Source: Rhodanobacter sp. DHG33
GTDB lineage: Bacteria; Pseudomonadota; Gammaproteobacteria; Xanthomonadales; Rhodanobacteraceae
Assembly: GCF_014843005.1 (NCBI RefSeq)
Contig: NZ_JACYXM010000003.1
Span: 186,001 to 250,000 of the forward strand
Direction: 5' to 3'
DNA: 64,000 nt
Position numbers and translations under genes: made by a program. Below, one piece after another: positions 36,116-46,084 of this stretch. Every line of letters starts with the position of its first letter. Position 1 is the first letter of the stretch. The notes under the pieces were generated by a model that had not been told where the DNA came from, did not search any database, and saw only the letters and a list, made by a program, of their open reading frames with translations.

Positions 36116-36186
36116 AGGTGCATGTTGACGGACAGGTACCGCCGCTAACAAGCGGTAGGTTCGCGATAACGAAGACGGGAGGGCAC

Positions 36187-39100
36187 GTGATCGCCGGCTC
36201 GCTGCTGCTCGTCGCGTTGCTTTACGTGGGCCTGCTGTTCGGCGTGGCCTGGATGGGCGATCGTCGACCGCTCTATCCGCGCCAGCCGAGATTGCGGCCT
36301 TATGTGTATGCGCTGGCGATGGCCACGTACTGCACCTCGTGGACGTTCTATGGCGCAGTGGGTACGGCGGCGCGGTCCGGCCTGGCCTACCTGCCGATCT
36401 ATCTTGGGCCGATCCTGCTGTTCCTCGCCGGCTATGGTTTGATGCAGCGGCTGGTCCGCGTGGCCACCCAGCGCAACATCACCTCCATCGCCGACTTCAT
36501 CGGCGCGCGCTTCGGCAAGTCGCACGGGCTGGCGGCCCTGGTGGCGGTGATCGCGGTGGTGGCCGTGGTGCCGTATCTGGCGTTGCAGCTGAAAGCGGTG
36601 GCGATGTCCTACGCGATGCTGGGCGGCACGCAGGTCGCGATGACGCCGATGGGCGACACTGCGTTGTGGTGCGCACTGCTGCTGGCGCTGTTCGCGATAC
36701 TGTTCGGCACGCGCAGCATCGACGCCAGCGAGCACCATCACGGCCTGATGCTGGCGATCGCGCTGGAGTCGCTCATCAAGCTGCTGGCATTTGCCGCGCT
36801 GGCGTTCTATGCGTACTGGCACGCTCCCGACCTGAAGGCCATGTTCGCCCTGCCGCAGCAACATGCGGACCAAATAGTGCAGCCCACCTTCGTCACGCAG
36901 ACGCTGCTGGCGTTTTGCGCGATGTTCTGCCTGCCGCGGCAATTCCAGATCGGCGTGGTGGAATGCGAGGATCCCGACGATCTCGGCTGCGCACGCTGGC
37001 TGATCCCCGGCTACATGGCGGTGGTCAGCGTGGCGGTGTTGCCGATGGTGGCTGCCGGTGCGCTGCTGCCGCAGGTCCGCGACGGCGCGCCCGATGCGTG
37101 GGTGCTGAACTTGCCGTTGGCTTACGGCAACCACGGCATGGCCTTGCTGGCCTATCTCGGCGGGTTCTCGGCCAGCACCGGCATGGTGATCGTGGCTACG
37201 GTGGCCTTGTCCACGATGATCAGCAACGATCTGGCGATGCCGCTACTGCTGCGCATCCGACGGTTACGGCTGGAGCAGCGCAGCGACGTGTCCACCCTGC
37301 TGTTGCGCGTGCGTCGCTGCGCGATCCTGGCGCTGGCGCTGATGGCCTATGCCTATTACCGGCTCGCAGCGGACGAGGAGGATCTCGCAGCCACGGGCCT
37401 GCTATCGCTGGCTGCCGTGGCGCAGTTCGCGCCGGCGATCCTGGCGGCGCTGTACTGGCGCAGCGCCAGCCGGCGTGGCGTGATCATCGGTCTGCTTGCC
37501 GGATTCGCGATATGGATCTACACCCTGCTGCTGCCGGAGATGAGCCACGCGCCATGGCTGCAGCATGGGCCGTTCGGCATCGAGTGGCTGCGGCCGCAGG
37601 CGTTGTTCGGCGTGCAGGGTTGGGATCCGGTGGTGCACAGCGCGTTCTGGTCGCTGCTGTTGAACGCAGGTTGCCTGGTATTCGTTTCGTTGCGCTGGCG
37701 GTCCAGCCTGGAAGAACGGCTGCATGCGTCGATGTTCATCGATCCACGTACCACCAGCCAGGCCGGCACCGGCGATTGGCGCGGCCGGGTGCGGGTCGCC
37801 GACCTGCGCACCATCGCCGAACGCATCGTCGGCGTGCGCAGCACGCAACGCGCCTTCGAGGACTACGCGCAGCGCCGCGGCAAGCCGTTCCTGGCAGGCG
37901 AGGCAGCCGACCGCGCGCTGATCCAGCACACCGAGCGTCTGCTCGCCGGCGCCGTGGGCGCGGCCAGTGCGCGGCGCATCCTGATGGGCATGCTTTCCGG
38001 CTCGGGCCTGGACATTGCCGAAGCGATGGCCCTGATGGACGAAGCCTCGCAGGAGCTGCGCTTCAACCGCGAGCTGCTTTCCTCGACCCTGGAAAACATC
38101 ACGCAGGGCATCAGCGTGGTCGACGCCGACATGCGCGTAGTGGCGTGGAACCGGCGCTACATCGAGCTGTTCGATTACCCCGGCGGCATGGTCTACGTGG
38201 GCGTGCCGGTGGCCGACCTGATCCGCTGGAATGCCGAGCACGGCGAGTGCGGTCCCGGCGAAGTGGATGCGCACGTGGCCAAGCGCCTCGCCCACCTGCG
38301 CGTCGGCACGCCGCATGTGTTCCAGCGCGTGCGCGCCGACGGCAGCACCATCGAGATGCGCGGCAGTGCGCTGCCCGGCGGCGGCTACGTCACCACCTAT
38401 ACCGACGTCACCGCGTATAAGCGTGTCGAACGGGCGTTGATCGAGGCGAACGAAACGCTGGAACAGCGCGTGGATCAGCGCACCGTCGAGTTGAGCGAGG
38501 CGCTGGCCGCCACCGCGCAAGCGCAACGCACCGCCGAAGCCGCCAACGCATCGAAAACGCGCTTCCTCGCAGCGGCGAGCCACGACTTGCTGCAACCCCT
38601 CAACGCCGCGCGCCTGTTCACCTCCGCCTTGCGTCAGCAGCCTGGGTTGGATGCGGAGGCGCTGCAGCTCGCCGAGCGCATCGACGCCTCTTTCCGCGCC
38701 GCCGAGAACCTGCTCGACGCGTTGCTGGATACGTCACGCCTGGACACGGGCACGTATCGGCCGGAAATCGCCGATTTCGCGCTGGCCGACCTGTTCGACT
38801 CGCTGCAAAGCCAGTTCGCTGCGCTGGCCGAACAGCGCGGCCTGCGTCTGCGCGTTGCACCCACCCGGCTCGCCGTGCGCAGCGATCCGCAGCTGCTGCG
38901 TCGCGTGCTGCAGAATTTCCTTTCCAATGCGCTGCGCTACGTGCGCGAAGGCGGCGTGCTGCTGGGCGCGCGTCGCGTCGGCGGGGAAGTGCGCATCGAA
39001 GTATGGGACACCGGTCCGGGCATTCCCGTCGAGCAGCGCGCGCGCATCTTCGGCGAGTTCCAGCGGCTGGAGCAACCATCGCCATGGGACGAGAAGGGCT

Positions 39101-39663
39101 TGGGCCTGGGCCTGTCGATCTGCGACCGCATCGCCGCCATCCTCGACCATCGGCTCGACCTGCACTCGCGCCCCGGCCACGGCAGCTGCTTCGCGATCGT
39201 CGTGCCGCGCGTCGCCGCCGCACCCAGCCGCCGGCAAGGCGTGCACCGCGCCAGCGGGGGAAGCAACGAACAGTTGCCGCTCACCGTGCTTTGCCTCGAC
39301 GACGATCCCGCCATCCTCGACGGCATGCGGCTGTTGCTGGGTCGTTGGGGCGTGGATTGCCGCATCGCGCGCGACGTCGCCGCCGCCGCCGCCGAACTGC
39401 AACGCGGCCCGGTGGATCTCATCCTCGCCGATTATCATCTCGCCGCCGGCAGCGATGGCCTGCAAGCTCTGCAGCAATTGCATGCGGCCCGCGGCACGCT
39501 TCCTCCTGCCGCCCTCATCACCGCCGACGGCAGCAGCGAACTCAAGCATCGCGTGCGCGAGCTGGGCTATCCGGTGTTGCACAAGCCGGTGAAGCCGGCG
39601 GCGCTGCGGGCTTTGCTGACGGCGCTGGTCAGGAAACAGGGTGAAGGAAGCAGGAGCGCTTGA
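36187..39663 (+). CDS. crbS: CrbS-type hybrid sensor histidine kinase with sodium:solute symporter domain
   Basis: Membrane-bound sensor of the CrbS/MxtR family, which in Vibrio and Pseudomonas works with CrbR/ErdR to switch on acetyl-CoA synthetase. The 1158-residue protein has, in order: an SSS-type domain of about 12-13 helices (1-~490), a linker, a PAS domain (~635-740), a coiled coil, a histidine kinase core with His799 in AAASHDLLQPLNAARL, an N box and G boxes, and a receiver domain with Asp1082 (LILADYH). A GTG at 36187 with a GGAGGG Shine-Dalgarno is preferred over an ATG at 36118 that is only two bases from the divergent transferase start. The cognate regulator and acs lie 4 kb to the right. 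Confidence 0.9.
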   Translation: MIAGSLLLVALLYVGLLFGVAWMGDRRPLYPRQPRLRPYVYALAMATYCTSWTFYGAVGTAARSGLAYLPIYLGPILLFLAGYGLMQRLVRVATQRNITSIADFIGARFGKSHGLAALVAVIAVVAVVPYLALQLKAVAMSYAMLGGTQVAMTPMGDTALWCALLLALFAILFGTRSIDASEHHHGLMLAIALESLIKLLAFAALAFYAYWHAPDLKAMFALPQQHADQIVQPTFVTQTLLAFCAMFCLPRQFQIGVVECEDPDDLGCARWLIPGYMAVVSVAVLPMVAAGALLPQVRDGAPDAWVLNLPLAYGNHGMALLAYLGGFSASTGMVIVATVALSTMISNDLAMPLLLRIRRLRLEQRSDVSTLLLRVRRCAILALALMAYAYYRLAADEEDLAATGLLSLAAVAQFAPAILAALYWRSASRRGVIIGLLAGFAIWIYTLLLPEMSHAPWLQHGPFGIEWLRPQALFGVQGWDPVVHSAFWSLLLNAGCLVFVSLRWRSSLEERLHASMFIDPRTTSQAGTGDWRGRVRVADLRTIAERIVGVRSTQRAFEDYAQRRGKPFLAGEAADRALIQHTERLLAGAVGAASARRILMGMLSGSGLDIAEAMALMDEASQELRFNRELLSSTLENITQGISVVDADMRVVAWNRRYIELFDYPGGMVYVGVPVADLIRWNAEHGECGPGEVDAHVAKRLAHLRVGTPHVFQRVRADGSTIEMRGSALPGGGYVTTYTDVTAYKRVERALIEANETLEQRVDQRTVELSEALAATAQAQRTAEAANASKTRFLAAASHDLLQPLNAARLFTSALRQQPGLDAEALQLAERIDASFRAAENLLDALLDTSRLDTGTYRPEIADFALADLFDSLQSQFAALAEQRGLRLRVAPTRLAVRSDPQLLRRVLQNFLSNALRYVREGGVLLGARRVGGEVRIEVWDTGPGIPVEQRARIFGEFQRLEQPSPWDEKGLGLGLSICDRIAAILDHRLDLHSRPGHGSCFAIVVPRVAAAPSRRQGVHRASGGSNEQLPLTVLCLDDDPAILDGMRLLLGRWGVDCRIARDVAAAAAELQRGPVDLILADYHLAAGSDGLQALQQLHAARGTLPPAALITADGSSELKHRVRELGYPVLHKPVKPAALRALLTALVRKQGEGSRSA

Positions 39664-39807: not shown

Positions 39808-42800
39808 TCAGAAACGCCAGTTGAAGCTGCCGCGGAAACCGCTGTCCACCGCCTGGTGGGCGAATTGGCCCTGCCAGGACAGATCGAACGCGGCGTCCTT
39901 CGCCACTTGCACGGTGAGGCCGGCGTCGCTGGCCAACGCGTTGCGTGCAATCGGCAGGCCGTCCACCACGAACGGCGCACCATCGGCGAAAGCCACCGAG
40001 GTCGTCGTGTCGGTACGGCCCCATGCACGGCGCCAACCCAGCATGGCATGCAGGCTCAGGCGCTGGTTGTCGTGGAACGGGAGGCTGGAAGCCAGGCGCG
40101 CACCCAGCGTGCTGTAGCCGAGGGTATGGCTTTCGCTGTTGCCGGTCAGGTCTGCCGCACCGCCGTGCTCCTGGAAGGCGTCCGTGTGCAGACGCACCCA
40201 TGCGGCCTGCGCGAAGGGTTCCAGCGTCGCGCGCTTGAACGTGAAGCGATAGGCGGCTTCGCCGAAAACCTGGGCCGTGTCGGCGTCGTAGCTGCCCAGC
40301 TCGTGCCCGGCCAGTCCTGGCACGGTGACGAAGCGCGTGCTGTCCAGCGAGTGCCAGCCGTACGCGGCTCCTGCACGCAGGCCCAGATTGCCGAGCTGGG
40401 TGCCGATGTAGGCGCTGAGATCGACATCGTGGCTGGAGAGCGAGGAGGCGCGCGCCGCCGTGTTCACCGAGGTCTGCGTGTAGCCGGCGGAAAGACCCAG
40501 GCGCGTGTTGTCGCCCAGCGCATGATCCGCGCCGAGCAGCAGGCCACCGCTGGTCTGCTTGGTCGAGGCGGCGTTGCCGTTGCTGTCCTGCTGCCCCCAC
40601 TCGCCCACGAATTGACCCCACCAGGCCAGACCGCCCGCACCGTCTTGCACGCTCGGACCACCAGCATCGGCGGACCCGTCCTCGCCTGCCTGACGCAGGC
40701 GGTCGATGACGGCATCGCGCACATAGCGGCTGTCTTCCAGCAGCACGCCTTGCGTGGTGGCGTGGATTTCACCGGAGAGCTGGTCGGCCGCGGCGCGCAG
40801 TGCTGCATCGCTGGGCAGGTTGGCGAGCACGGTGTACACCGCGCTGGCAGGCGTGGCGACGTAGGCCGCAGGGCGGATGGCGAAGCTTTCGGACTGGCCC
40901 GCGCCAGAGGCCTGTGGTGCAAGACTCTGTACGCCGCCCAGCGTGGCGCCTTCGTTTTGCGTGCCGCTGATGGCAGTCAGCGGACGAGTCTGTGCCACGG
41001 TCAGGTAGACGTGGTTGGCGTCGTAGCTGGGTGCAAGACCGAGCACGGCACTCAGCATGGTGTCGCCGACCAGCTGGTACTGGCCGCTGAGACCCTTGCC
41101 CGCGTCGAGCACGGTGTAGCGTGCGCCGGTCTGGTACAGGCCGCCGGAAGATGCCGAAAGGCCGAGGCTCGCGCCGTTGGCCAGCGTCGCACTGCCGCCC
41201 ACCGCAAGCAGGCTGGACACGCCAGGCTGCGCCGGATCGAGCTGCACCAGATACGCCGAGCCGGCAGCTTGCGTGTAGTTGCCGCTCACGGTCAGCGTCC
41301 GGTACTGCCCAGGCCCGTTGCCCGCAGCCACGACGCCGGTGCTTGCCAGGCTGCCGCCGATTTCGCCGTGGCCGAGCAGCAGGCCGCCGTTGACCACATT
41401 GCCGAGGATCTTGCCGTTGTCGGTGAGCGTGCCAAGGTTGGCCACGCCGCTGGCCAGCGAGCCTTCCACGTCCAGCGCGGCAGCTGCCCCGATGCCGGTG
41501 GCACCCGTGAAGGTGTTGCTGCCGGTGAGGGTTTCGTGGCCGCCGGACACGAGCAACCGGCCACCGGTACCGCCACCGATGCCACCATCCGCGATCTGGC
41601 CGCCGAAGCTGCCGCTCGCATGGGTGAGGTCCAGCGTGGCGTCGCCCAGGAGCACGTGACCGGTCCCGGAGAGCGACTGCACCATGGTGGTCTGCCAGGT
41701 GCGCGAGATGTCGAAAACGCCATTCACGTTCACGCTGGACGAAGCCGCGATGCTGCCCGGTCCAGCCAGCGCCAACCAGCCGGCGTTGGCAACGACAGTG
41801 GCGCCGGTATAGGTGTTGGTGCCGCTGAGATCGGCGATGCCGCCTGGGGCGACCTGCAACGCGCCGCGGCCGGAAATCGTGCCCGCCAGGCCCAGCGGGC
41901 CCATGCCCGGCGTCACTGTGAAGCCGGTCGTGATATTGGCGGTGGAAATGTAGAACGGCGTGTACGCGGTGGCCTGGTTCGCCAGGTCGTACATCACCGC
42001 GTTGTGCATGAAGAACGACAGGCCGTAGATCATCGCGTCCGGGAAGCCGCCGTACGGACCCACCGAGACCACATTGCTGTAATCGCCCTGGCTGTCGTTG
42101 CCGCTGGTCACCGAAGTCGGCAGGCCGGAGATGGCCAGCCCATTCGCGGTAACGGCCAGGCCGGTGGCCGTGAGGGTGATGCCGGGCACCAGGTCGCCGT
42201 TCTGGTTGATGTTGCCGGCCGCCTGTTCGGCGCTGGCGATGCCGAGGTCGCCGTTGTCGATCAGCACGATGTTCGGCGTGCCGGTGTCGAACAGCGTCAT
42301 CATCGGCGCGCTGGCATGCACGCCGCCGCCGGTGAGCGTGTACAGGAAGGCGGTGTCGAACTGGTACGCCGAGGGCGCGCCCGACAGCGGGAACGGAGTG
42401 GTCTGCCCCTGGGTGGGGAGCCACGGCACCACACTGAGGAACTGCGCGCGCAGCGCCGGCGTAAGGCCCACGATCAGGCAGGCCTGGGCGCAGGTACCGG
42501 GCGCCTTGCCGGTACCGTTGGCTTCCACGATGTAGCCGCTGCTGGTGAGCATGCCGGGCACGCCGTTGCCGAAGTCGCCCGCACCGAAGGTGCCGTAGAA
42601 GATCCCTTCCTCGGGCGGGATGCCCTTGTCGAGGTTTTGCTGCCAGGTGAGGTCCTGGTACAGCGTCACGCCATTCTGCGTGGTGATGGCCGGCCCCAGC
42701 GTATCGCCACCCGCGCTCTGCGGGGTGACCATCCAGTCGGTGGCCGCCGCCACGGGCAGGCCCTTCGACGTGGCATAGCTTGCGGCCTGGGCGCCGGTGG

Positions 42801-43173
42801 CGGAGTTGTAGAACTGCAGGCTGGCGACGGTGGTGGAAGCCTGCCAGTAACCGTAGGTGCCGTTGCCGTACAGATAGGCATAGGGGGCGCTCTTCGCCGC
42901 GCCAGGCTGGTTGGGAAACCATGCGGGCGAACCGTGGCCCACATCGATGTTGAAGGAGTCCGAGCCGGTGTCGAACAGGTATTCCTCCGGCGTGGCGCCG
43001 TTGACGCCGACATTGATGCCCAGGCGGTAGCCGTACTGGCCGCCGCCGTAGTTTTCCTGGATCAGGTCCAGCGGAATGGTGGTGCTGCTGGTGTTGGCGG
43101 CGAGTGCGGTGTGGAACGGTGCCAGCAGGCAGGCCACTGCCAGCGGCAAGGGCCGCAGATTCAGCTTGCTCAC
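39808..43173 (-). CDS. Type Va autotransporter with a pepsin-like aspartic protease passenger
   Basis: The 1121-residue protein has a signal peptide (cleaved after HTALA), a passenger, and a C-terminal outer-membrane beta-barrel (about 847-1121, last residue Phe). The passenger (about 30-410) shows the two-lobe layout of A1 aspartic proteases: LFDTGS with Asp68, a flap-like YGNGTYGYW (102-110), LFDTGT with Asp296, and GLSFFMHNAVMYDLANQ (384-400), resembling the C-terminal motif of pepsins. Then come autotransporter-associated beta-strand repeats (SGTNTYTGATV, TGSNTFTGATG). Start: GTG at 43173 with a GGAGA Shine-Dalgarno gives the natural signal peptide; an ATG at 43260 would add 29 polar residues. 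The gene lies between crbS and crbR. Alternative: a non-catalytic beta-rich adhesin that merely resembles pepsin. Confidence 0.85.
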   Translation of the reverse strand: MSKLNLRPLPLAVACLLAPFHTALAANTSSTTIPLDLIQENYGGGQYGYRLGINVGVNGATPEEYLFDTGSDSFNIDVGHGSPAWFPNQPGAAKSAPYAYLYGNGTYGYWQASTTVASLQFYNSATGAQAASYATSKGLPVAAATDWMVTPQSAGGDTLGPAITTQNGVTLYQDLTWQQNLDKGIPPEEGIFYGTFGAGDFGNGVPGMLTSSGYIVEANGTGKAPGTCAQACLIVGLTPALRAQFLSVVPWLPTQGQTTPFPLSGAPSAYQFDTAFLYTLTGGGVHASAPMMTLFDTGTPNIVLIDNGDLGIASAEQAAGNINQNGDLVPGITLTATGLAVTANGLAISGLPTSVTSGNDSQGDYSNVVSVGPYGGFPDAMIYGLSFFMHNAVMYDLANQATAYTPFYISTANITTGFTVTPGMGPLGLAGTISGRGALQVAPGGIADLSGTNTYTGATVVANAGWLALAGPGSIAASSSVNVNGVFDISRTWQTTMVQSLSGTGHVLLGDATLDLTHASGSFGGQIADGGIGGGTGGRLLVSGGHETLTGSNTFTGATGIGAAAALDVEGSLASGVANLGTLTDNGKILGNVVNGGLLLGHGEIGGSLASTGVVAAGNGPGQYRTLTVSGNYTQAAGSAYLVQLDPAQPGVSSLLAVGGSATLANGASLGLSASSGGLYQTGARYTVLDAGKGLSGQYQLVGDTMLSAVLGLAPSYDANHVYLTVAQTRPLTAISGTQNEGATLGGVQSLAPQASGAGQSESFAIRPAAYVATPASAVYTVLANLPSDAALRAAADQLSGEIHATTQGVLLEDSRYVRDAVIDRLRQAGEDGSADAGGPSVQDGAGGLAWWGQFVGEWGQQDSNGNAASTKQTSGGLLLGADHALGDNTRLGLSAGYTQTSVNTAARASSLSSHDVDLSAYIGTQLGNLGLRAGAAYGWHSLDSTRFVTVPGLAGHELGSYDADTAQVFGEAAYRFTFKRATLEPFAQAAWVRLHTDAFQEHGGAADLTGNSESHTLGYSTLGARLASSLPFHDNQRLSLHAMLGWRRAWGRTDTTTSVAFADGAPFVVDGLPIARNALASDAGLTVQVAKDAAFDLSWQGQFAHQAVDSGFRGSFNWRF

Positions 43174-43405
43174 GTAACGTTTCTCCCCAAACGGTCTATG
43201 TGCATTGGATTTTTTGTCGCGTCCCTGCATGTCCGCCCGTTTCCGGGCGGAATGGTCCATAAGGACATAGACGTTTGAGGGCTCTCTTTTGGCAATGGCA
43301 TGCCGTTGCAGACGCCCGGGCCGCGGTGGCTAGGGCGTACAGACTTTCCGTGTGCCGCACGGTGAGTGCCGATATCTACTTGGGCGCGCGCGGCACCCGC
43401 GGCTC

Positions 43406-44083
43406 TCAGTCGCCATCTTCGTCCATCGGCAATGGCTGCATCGCGCCGGGCTCCACGGCGAGATGGCTGGCGGCGAGGGCGACCTGCGTACGGTTGTTGA
43501 CGCCCAGCTTGCGCATGATGGCGGTCATGTGCGCCTTCACCGTGGCTTCGGAGACGCTGAGCTCCCAGGCGATCTGCTTGTTGAGCAGGCCCTCGGCGAT
43601 CATGGTCAGCACGCGGAACTGCTGCGGCGTGAGCGCGGCGACGCGGGCGGCGATATCGGCTTCGTCGGGCTTGAGTTCGGCGCTGCCGCCGACGAGCTGC
43701 GGCGGTACCCACACGTCGCCGTCGAGCACGGCGCGGATGGCGTGGACGATCTCTTCGCCGGCGGTGGACTTGGGAATGTAGGCGGCGGCGCCGTGGGCCA
43801 GCGCGCGTCGCGCGACCTGCGCTTCCTCGTGGCCGGAAACCACGATGATCGGCAGGCCGGGGTATTGGCCGCGGATGTGCGCCAAGGCGGAATAGCCGCG
43901 TGCGCCCGGCATGTGCAGATCGAGCAGCAGCAGGTCGGCGTCGGGGTACTGCTCGATCAGCGTGTACAGGCCATGCACGCTGTCGGCGCTGCGCACCTGC
44001 GCCTGTGGCAGGGCGGCGAGCACCGCGCGTTGCAGGGCATCGCGGAACAGCGGATGGTCGTCGGCGATCAGGATGTCGGGCAT
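43406..44083 (-). CDS. crbR: CrbR/ErdR-type response regulator (NarL/FixJ family)
   Basis: A 225-residue transcription regulator with a receiver domain (1-~120; Asp8, Asp9 and phospho-acceptor Asp55 in LLLLDLHMPG, Lys in YIPKS) and a LuxR-type helix-turn-helix (about 150-205; LTPQQFRVLTMIAEGLLNKQIAWEL, SEATVKAHMTAIMRKLG). Orthologues activate acs. It is on the same strand as acs, 60 bases after the acs stop with a palindrome in between, and faces crbS, with which it should form a pair. A 232-base gap separates it from the autotransporter. Confidence 0.9.
   Translation of the reverse strand: MPDILIADDHPLFRDALQRAVLAALPQAQVRSADSVHGLYTLIEQYPDADLLLLDLHMPGARGYSALAHIRGQYPGLPIIVVSGHEEAQVARRALAHGAAAYIPKSTAGEEIVHAIRAVLDGDVWVPPQLVGGSAELKPDEADIAARVAALTPQQFRVLTMIAEGLLNKQIAWELSVSEATVKAHMTAIMRKLGVNNRTQVALAASHLAVEPGAMQPLPMDEDGD

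Positions 44084-44143: not shown

Positions 44144-46084
<1,941 letters not shown>

Follow-up and report, generated by a model that had tools for sequence, protein, structure and literature searches.

Can a two-lobed, pepsin-like aspartic protease be carried to the surface of a bacterium as the passenger of an autotransporter? The question is raised by a gene of the soil bacterium Rhodanobacter sp. DHG33 that lies on the minus strand at positions 43173-39808 of the window, that is, the whole 64,000-nucleotide stretch analyzed here (contig NZ_JACYXM010000003.1, positions 186,001 to 250,000), and whose translation comprises 1121 residues. A preliminary description, made from the sequence, had read this protein as a signal peptide, a pepsin-like protease, beta-strand repeats and a barrel, which together would form a surface-displayed acid-type protease. 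Our analysis makes it probable that the protein is a type Va autotransporter and that it carries an aspartic endopeptidase of pepsin fold, monomeric and bilobal, to the outside of the outer membrane.

The four motifs of that description all lie at the residues it had assigned to them. In the translation, the first catalytic motif DTGS (Asp68; residues 68-71, 42961..42972, on the minus strand like all features of the gene) is followed by the flap motif YGNGTYGYW (residues 102-110, 42844..42870), whose Tyr102 is the counterpart of pepsin Tyr75, by the second catalytic motif DTGT (Asp296; residues 296-299, 42277..42288) and by a late motif at residues 384-400, GLSFFMHNAVMYDLANQ (G-LSFF-MHNAVMYDLANQ, also written GLSFFxxNAVMYDL; 41974..42024), which joins the lobe 2 psi-loop to the C-terminal motif. 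Two D-T/S-G motifs, a flap Tyr and psi-loop Gly residues are what is described as a pepsin-type active site (PMC2761423). Both catalytic motifs, in the forms LFDTGS and LFDTGT, fit the pattern hydrophobic-hydrophobic-Asp-[ST]-Gly-[ST].

Conservation was assessed in an alignment (A3) of 50 homologous domains, with identities to the window's domain as low as 28%; residue-level counts refer to relatives with retrieved loci, a subset of the family-scan matches. Asp68, Tyr102 and Asp296 were present in all 50 domains, and the catalytic pair and flap Tyr also in 19 of 19 sequences of a closer set (A1). Only 17 of the 405 domain positions were invariant over the 50 domains, including Asp68, Thr69, Gly70, Tyr102, Gly197, Asp296, Gly298 and Gly384. 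The seven pepsin-defining positions (D68, T69, G70, Y102, D296, G298 and G384) were all among them, corresponding to a hypergeometric chance of about 6e-11, a figure for which the seven positions were chosen after the alignment was seen. Judged by this conservation, the motifs are not due to chance. Around this core, the Gly after Tyr102 was found in 47 of 50 domains, position 297 is Thr or Ser, and Thr299 was retained in 47. The lobe 1 psi-loop segment GTFGAG (residues 194-199, 42577..42594) keeps Gly194 and Gly197 in every domain and reads T-F-G197, with T (24 domains), I (15), V (9) or R (2) in first place. Its lobe 2 equivalent, I-Y-G384, fits hydrophobic-hydrophobic-Gly, and Gly384, Phe387, Asp396 and Leu397 of the C-terminal motif were each present in 50 of 50. 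The sole cysteines besides one in the signal peptide form a Cys228-x3-Cys232 motif (42478..42492), with Cys228 shared by 49 and Cys232 by 46 domains.

Structure prediction likewise pointed to a pepsin-like domain. A template-free AlphaFold2 model of residues 26-430, computed from 48 diverse relatives, had a predicted local distance difference test (pLDDT) score of 89.9 and a predicted template modelling (pTM) score of 0.90; an earlier model from 19 close homologues (pLDDT 45.4) was not used for structure matching. Foldseek returned 536 matches at E 0.001, with rhizopuspepsin as the best (E 4.5e-11), and among the 50 of these 536 that were listed, 47 were named aspartic proteases, pepsins, renins and the like, the remaining three (3aup twice, and 3vlb) being plant proteins of pepsin-type fold. 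The VIA structure comparison, which re-examines only Foldseek's own match list, gave pepsin-type folds for all 50 listed entries (Z 20.3-20.9), the match covering model residues 1-385, corresponding to residues 26-410 of the protein. Plasmepsin II (1sme) was superposed with Z 20.9 and a root-mean-square deviation (rmsd) of 3.5 Å over 283 residues, and the lowest rmsd among the 50 listed entries belonged to PE_PGRS16 (4EHC; Z 20.7, 2.8 Å, 257 of 280 residues). According to the model and these comparisons, residues of about 30-410 (41944..43086) would form a bilobal, single-chain protease domain, bearing out the two-lobed fold that had been proposed, with pepsin-type entries in 50 of 50 listed rows of each comparison.

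The plant proteins among the matches bear on whether such a fold would be catalytic at all. We take 3aup to be soybean basic 7S globulin and 3vlb to be EDGP, both presumably inactive A1 folds. Soybean basic 7S globulin has lost the catalytic residues in question. A passenger of the same kind, binding proteins or sugars instead of cutting them, would also find a parallel in PE_PGRS16, for which a solved fold and no proteolytic activity are reported (PMC6819658). A binding protein would, however, be expected to lose its catalytic residues, whereas the two Asp, the Gly after each of them and the flap Tyr were retained in 50 of 50 domains across wide divergence, rendering an inactive passenger improbable. 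We regard the pepsin-fold protease, presumably displayed at the surface, as probably active.

Several results weigh against a pepsin relative on an autotransporter. The query TM-scores of the listed Foldseek rows were moderate (0.35-0.53) and their rmsd values large (6.6-12.3 Å), which would imply lobe angles or insertions that differ from known structures. Searched as a single protein against NCBIfam and, up to E 1, Pfam, the sequence matched autotransporter parts only and no aspartic protease, and no PDB sequence was matched at E up to 1. The preliminary description had proposed a profile search (PF00026) as a check; this family was matched neither by the protein nor, at E up to 1, by any of the 50 homologous domains, and taken alone this test counts against the claim. 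The sole clan AA matches in the 50 domains were weak, namely Asp_protease_2 in two (best 0.043) and gag-asp_proteas in one (0.099). An hhalign comparison with two bacterial PF00026 proteins gave no significant match (probability 1%, E 0.057), the partner profile of two diverse sequences being weak. Further points on this side are the dependence of one profile match on two alignment rows, three relatives without a barrel and the residue at the place of pepsin Asp303, each taken up below.

Profiles built from the family came closer to known aspartic proteases. While a 19-sequence profile gave two unrelated weak matches in the PDB, the 50-sequence profile, run against 177,635 PDB sequences, placed SAP2 (1zap, E 0.0017) first and plasmepsin V in two forms (E 0.037 and 0.04) next, ahead of two unrelated chains at E 1.6-1.7. 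In the SAP2 alignment, both DTG motifs and the late G-x-x-F...D were in register, with residues 384-400 aligned to ILGDNF...YDL of the Candida protein, and the first-lobe stretch scored next to nothing. Omission of two rows (A4, 48 sequences) removed 1zap and left plasmepsin V only, at E 0.051 and 0.055, again followed by the same two unrelated chains. Sequence-profile support for kinship to pepsins is hence marginal and suggestive, and the kinship rests on the fold together with the motifs and invariant residues.

The single-sequence family searches would also suit an ordinary beta-helix autotransporter in which the DTG motifs are coincidental repeats. This explanation is contradicted by the AlphaFold2 model, the structure matches and the motif conservation, and we consider it barely credible. 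Conservation and structure outweigh the negative single-protein profile searches, so that we retain the pepsin-fold protease. Because PF00026 was matched in none of the 50 members, we file the protein as a pepsin-fold (clan AA) relative and not as a member of A1/PF00026; of 185 genomes of the class, 2 had a PF00026 match, and the genome of DHG33 had none. The family exposes a blind spot: when 35 near-complete rows were compared with Pfam and NCBIfam at E up to 0.001, none of the models found indicated an aspartic protease, all of them describing barrel, repeats or serine-autotransporter-like parts.

What does the protease domain sit on? The proposed order of signal peptide, protease, beta-strand repeats and barrel is supported by the translation, Pfam, NCBIfam and the barrels of relatives. 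Residues 1-25 (VSKLNLRPLPLAVACLLAPFHTALA; 43099..43173) read, by eye, as a signal peptide with a charged N-region, a hydrophobic core and an ALA-A site. Behind the protease, a beta-strand repeat linker (residues 430-850, 40624..41886) scored above the cut-off of TIGR02601 (22.4 versus 19.85 bits) and weakly, below cut-off, against PATR. It leads into an autotransporter beta-barrel (residues 851-1121 and the stop codon, 39808..40623), matched by PF03797 at residues 851-1099 (E 4.2e-59) and by TIGR01414 (E 6.9e-40), and the protein ends in RF, that is with an aromatic Phe. Among 35 near-complete frames read from stop to stop (A6, the window's included), 32 carried the barrel, or 31 of 34 distinct ones after removal of the duplicate L024/L061, a count that refers to frames lying wholly within their loci.

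Residues 540-1121 matched positions 452-988 of the EprS model (NF051851, E 6.5e-75), and 32 of the 35 rows matched this model too; the score, 252.8 bits where the cut-off is 1700, comes from the C-terminal half only and does not make the protein an EprS. Read most simply, the protein shares its scaffold with serine-protease autotransporters and carries an aspartic protease in front. Across 31 distinct proteins, Mantel tests (999 permutations) correlated protease with linker distances at r 0.80, protease with barrel at 0.59 and linker with barrel at 0.85, each with P 0.001 (0.81, 0.61 and 0.86 with the duplicate row kept), which is consistent with shared inheritance. Since the three parts diverge in a correlated manner, the fusion of protease and scaffold is probably old. 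On the opposing side, three relatives have the protease and some of the repeat linker but no barrel: L039:2687-4678 and L057:2508-4613, both from a family outside the window's class within the same phylum, and L096:4794-6800 from a Paracoccus plasmid. Upstream of the latter, at L096:1804-3894, lies another autotransporter with a different passenger.

How would such a protein work? Export, barrel insertion and folding order are general steps of type Va autotransporter secretion. Applied here, the Sec signal would direct the chain into the periplasm, the C-terminal barrel would insert into the outer membrane, the beta-repeat linker would cross and fold first, and the N-terminal protease would emerge and fold last, becoming active only outside the cell. 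There, Asp68 and Asp296, one per lobe, would bind the attacking water, with Tyr102 on the flap closing over the substrate. In the model, the first predicted strands begin at about residue 31, leaving no room for a pepsin propeptide after the signal peptide, and late folding outside the cell might therefore serve as a safety catch. Of the surface-displayed acid-type protease named in the preliminary description, the predicted fold and the autotransporter layout stand, while its proteolytic and acid-type character is better kept conditional.

For the acid optimum, residue 299 offers a first hint. Thr299 is the counterpart of pepsin Thr218. At this place, the text of the paper on the seven earlier bacterial pepsin homologues gives Ala for six of them (its abstract says Asp) and ties Ala to a neutral pH optimum (PMC2761423). 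As Thr299 is mostly kept in the family, an acid optimum would be favored. Conversely, the place of pepsin Asp303, in the register of the SAP2 alignment, is Leu, Ile, Val, Met or Tyr in the family. Leu is likewise reported at this place in the Shewanella and Colwellia homologues (PMC2761423), and shewasin D is nevertheless described as active at acid pH (PMC4814920). The pH argument drawn from these two residues is weak, because the Asp303 place is non-Asp here as in Shewanella, yet shewasin D is acid-active.

The likeliest role would be protein digestion or the cleavage of surface proteins in acidic surroundings. A protease of the same fold and activity could instead serve maturation, clipping itself and other surface proteins and not food protein. 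The listed match of lowest rmsd, PE_PGRS16 (4EHC), is related to PecA, a protease reported to cleave itself and other surface proteins (PMC6819658), and the DHG33 genome holds five PF03797 loci, one being the single copy joined to the pepsin fold and four being possible substrates. No sign of a dedicated partner was seen, however: the three neighboring genes described below were not beside the gene in the searched relatives, neighbors shared by at least four of 24 loci were confined to six related loci (L014-L019), and the gene, found in 8 of 15 genomes of its own genus, had no match in the other 7, some of them incomplete. We consider a dedicated maturation role possible but rather unlikely, and keep digestion or surface cleavage by an exported acid protease as the favored function.

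The gene lies between a protein with SSF, PAS, histidine kinase and receiver parts (36118-39663, plus strand) and a LuxR-type response regulator (43406-44083, minus strand), next to which follows an acetyl-CoA synthetase, Acs (44144-46084, minus strand). So placed, it looks like a gene that splits an apparent acetate-switch module, whose CrbS-like kinase and regulator would presumably be named CrbS and CrbR. A conserved operon was considered and not supported, as tblastn (E 1e-20) found the CrbS-like kinase, the LuxR regulator and Acs in none of the other loci, this test covering loci longer than 5,500 bases with flanks of differing length. The 24-locus comparison used frames of at least 150 residues, set aside the gene itself together with every frame lying over it on either strand, and took those shared with at least three other loci.

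How widely is the family spread? Counted at E up to 0.001, with the DHG33 genome included where searched, relatives were found in 10 of 61 related genomes, in 29 of 233 genomes of the family (one a fragment of 31 positions, G518), in 4 of 398 genomes of the phylum, in 6 of 297 genomes (one match probably false) of the family and 2 of 385 of the class to which G253 belongs, and in 11 of 75 genomes of another distant family. Public genomes added 13 loci and a Paracoccus denitrificans plasmid two places, while a scan of viral contigs found no relative. Among the hosts identified by name are Rhodanobacter, Dyella (with D. acidisoli), Neokomagataea and Paracoccus. Several of these host genera have acid-tolerant habits. 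Overall, we lean towards a hitherto unnamed family of exported bacterial pepsin-fold proteases, thinly spread over these four genera and other proteobacteria, in which a pepsin-like domain on an EprS-type scaffold, with Thr299 mostly retained and a propeptide absent, would act as a self-delivering acid protease controlled by surface folding order, and which would form an exported prokaryotic branch bearing on the origin of two-lobed pepsins.

In composing the 50-domain alignment, seven close domains out of 36 distinct ones (L004, L005, L006, L010, L018, L023 and L035) were left out, which the closer set contains, some under other identifiers; of 23 further domains, L064 and L066 were omitted as the same genes as L029 and L026. 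L050, L054/L059 and L075/L084 were dropped before counting. The Phyllobacterium plasmid autotransporter L050:4818-7322 retains nothing of the domain but the end of lobe 2, lacks the DTG motifs, and is by its sequence a decayed or truncated relative. L054/L059, with about 65 matching positions, no D-T/S-G-T/S motif and, by eye, the look of a PAS/kinase protein, was rejected as a probable false match. In L075:955-3894 (L075/L084), a TGA breaks the frame inside the protease part, apparently through a pseudogene or an assembly error, and the two pieces were kept apart. Three genomes of one distant genus (G1283, G1298 and G1302) carry three or four copies each (loci L068, L070, L071, L078-L080, L085-L087, L089 and L090), which may reflect diversification of substrate choice.

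Translation was taken to start at the GTG at 43173, with the stop at 39808, in a frame already open from an upstream ATG at 43260. A Shine-Dalgarno-like GGGGAGA (43182..43188, minus strand) lies just upstream of the GTG, the same stretch is found ahead of the corresponding start codon in several relatives, and GTG, ATG or TTG stands at the matching position in the 10 relatives whose N-termini were compared by eye (L022 loosely). Because of this ribosome-binding-like stretch and the matching start codons, the GTG appears the likelier start. At 66.9%, the G+C content of the protease part differs little from the 66.3% of the window.

Known systems share some features with the protein and differ in others. 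A literature search, judged by titles and the beginnings of abstracts in a collection with few subscription journals and no bioRxiv, found no report of a pepsin-fold autotransporter passenger. EprS and other serine-protease autotransporters share the linker and barrel but carry a serine-protease passenger instead of an aspartic-protease fold. Pepsin has Trp39 following its first motif. The eukaryotic A1 enzymes (plasmepsins II and V, Candida SAP2, pepsin and rhizopuspepsin) share the bilobal form, two D-T/S-G motifs, flap Tyr and late Gly motif, whereas the window protein has no Trp after DTGS, no room for a propeptide, one CxxxC and no PF00026 match. Among bacterial homologues, the shewasin type (MEROPS A1) is likewise bilobal, with a predicted active site made up of two Asp and one Tyr (replaced by Phe in two of seven), but differs at the Thr299 place, as detailed above, and in lacking signal peptides; Rawlings and Bateman describe such homologues as rare, present in seven genomes, none with a signal peptide (PMC2761423). 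Shewasin D was located mainly in the cytoplasm by immunogold (PMC4814920).

Retropepsins are single-lobed and act as dimers. Rickettsial APRc, a bacterial clan AA protease described as retropepsin-like (PMC4140852), belongs to this single-lobed type, whereas the window protein holds both lobes in one chain. RapL of Rickettsia, which like APRc is proposed or reported to process autotransporters, is described as a periplasmic lipoprotein and reported as a serine protease (PMC10414592).

To our knowledge, PecA is the one surface case of a bacterial protease of this fold. PecA (PE_PGRS35), a mycobacterial surface aspartic protease exported by type VII secretion, and PE_PGRS16 share with the window protein a bacterial pepsin-fold domain, two DTG/DSG aspartates and a place at the cell surface (PMC6819658). 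They differ in their PE and PGRS domains, their type VII secretion, their C-terminal protease and their lack of an autotransporter barrel; the window protein has no PE domain or PGRS repeats in the Pfam search at E up to 1, and its domain is 18% identical to PE_PGRS16 in the structural alignment. Gram-negative export of a pepsin-fold domain by type V secretion would widen the settings in which this fold works, bring aspartic proteases into the catalytic repertoire of autotransporter passengers, and supply about 50 sequences with which to ask whether two-lobed enzymes arose before or after bacteria and eukaryotes parted.

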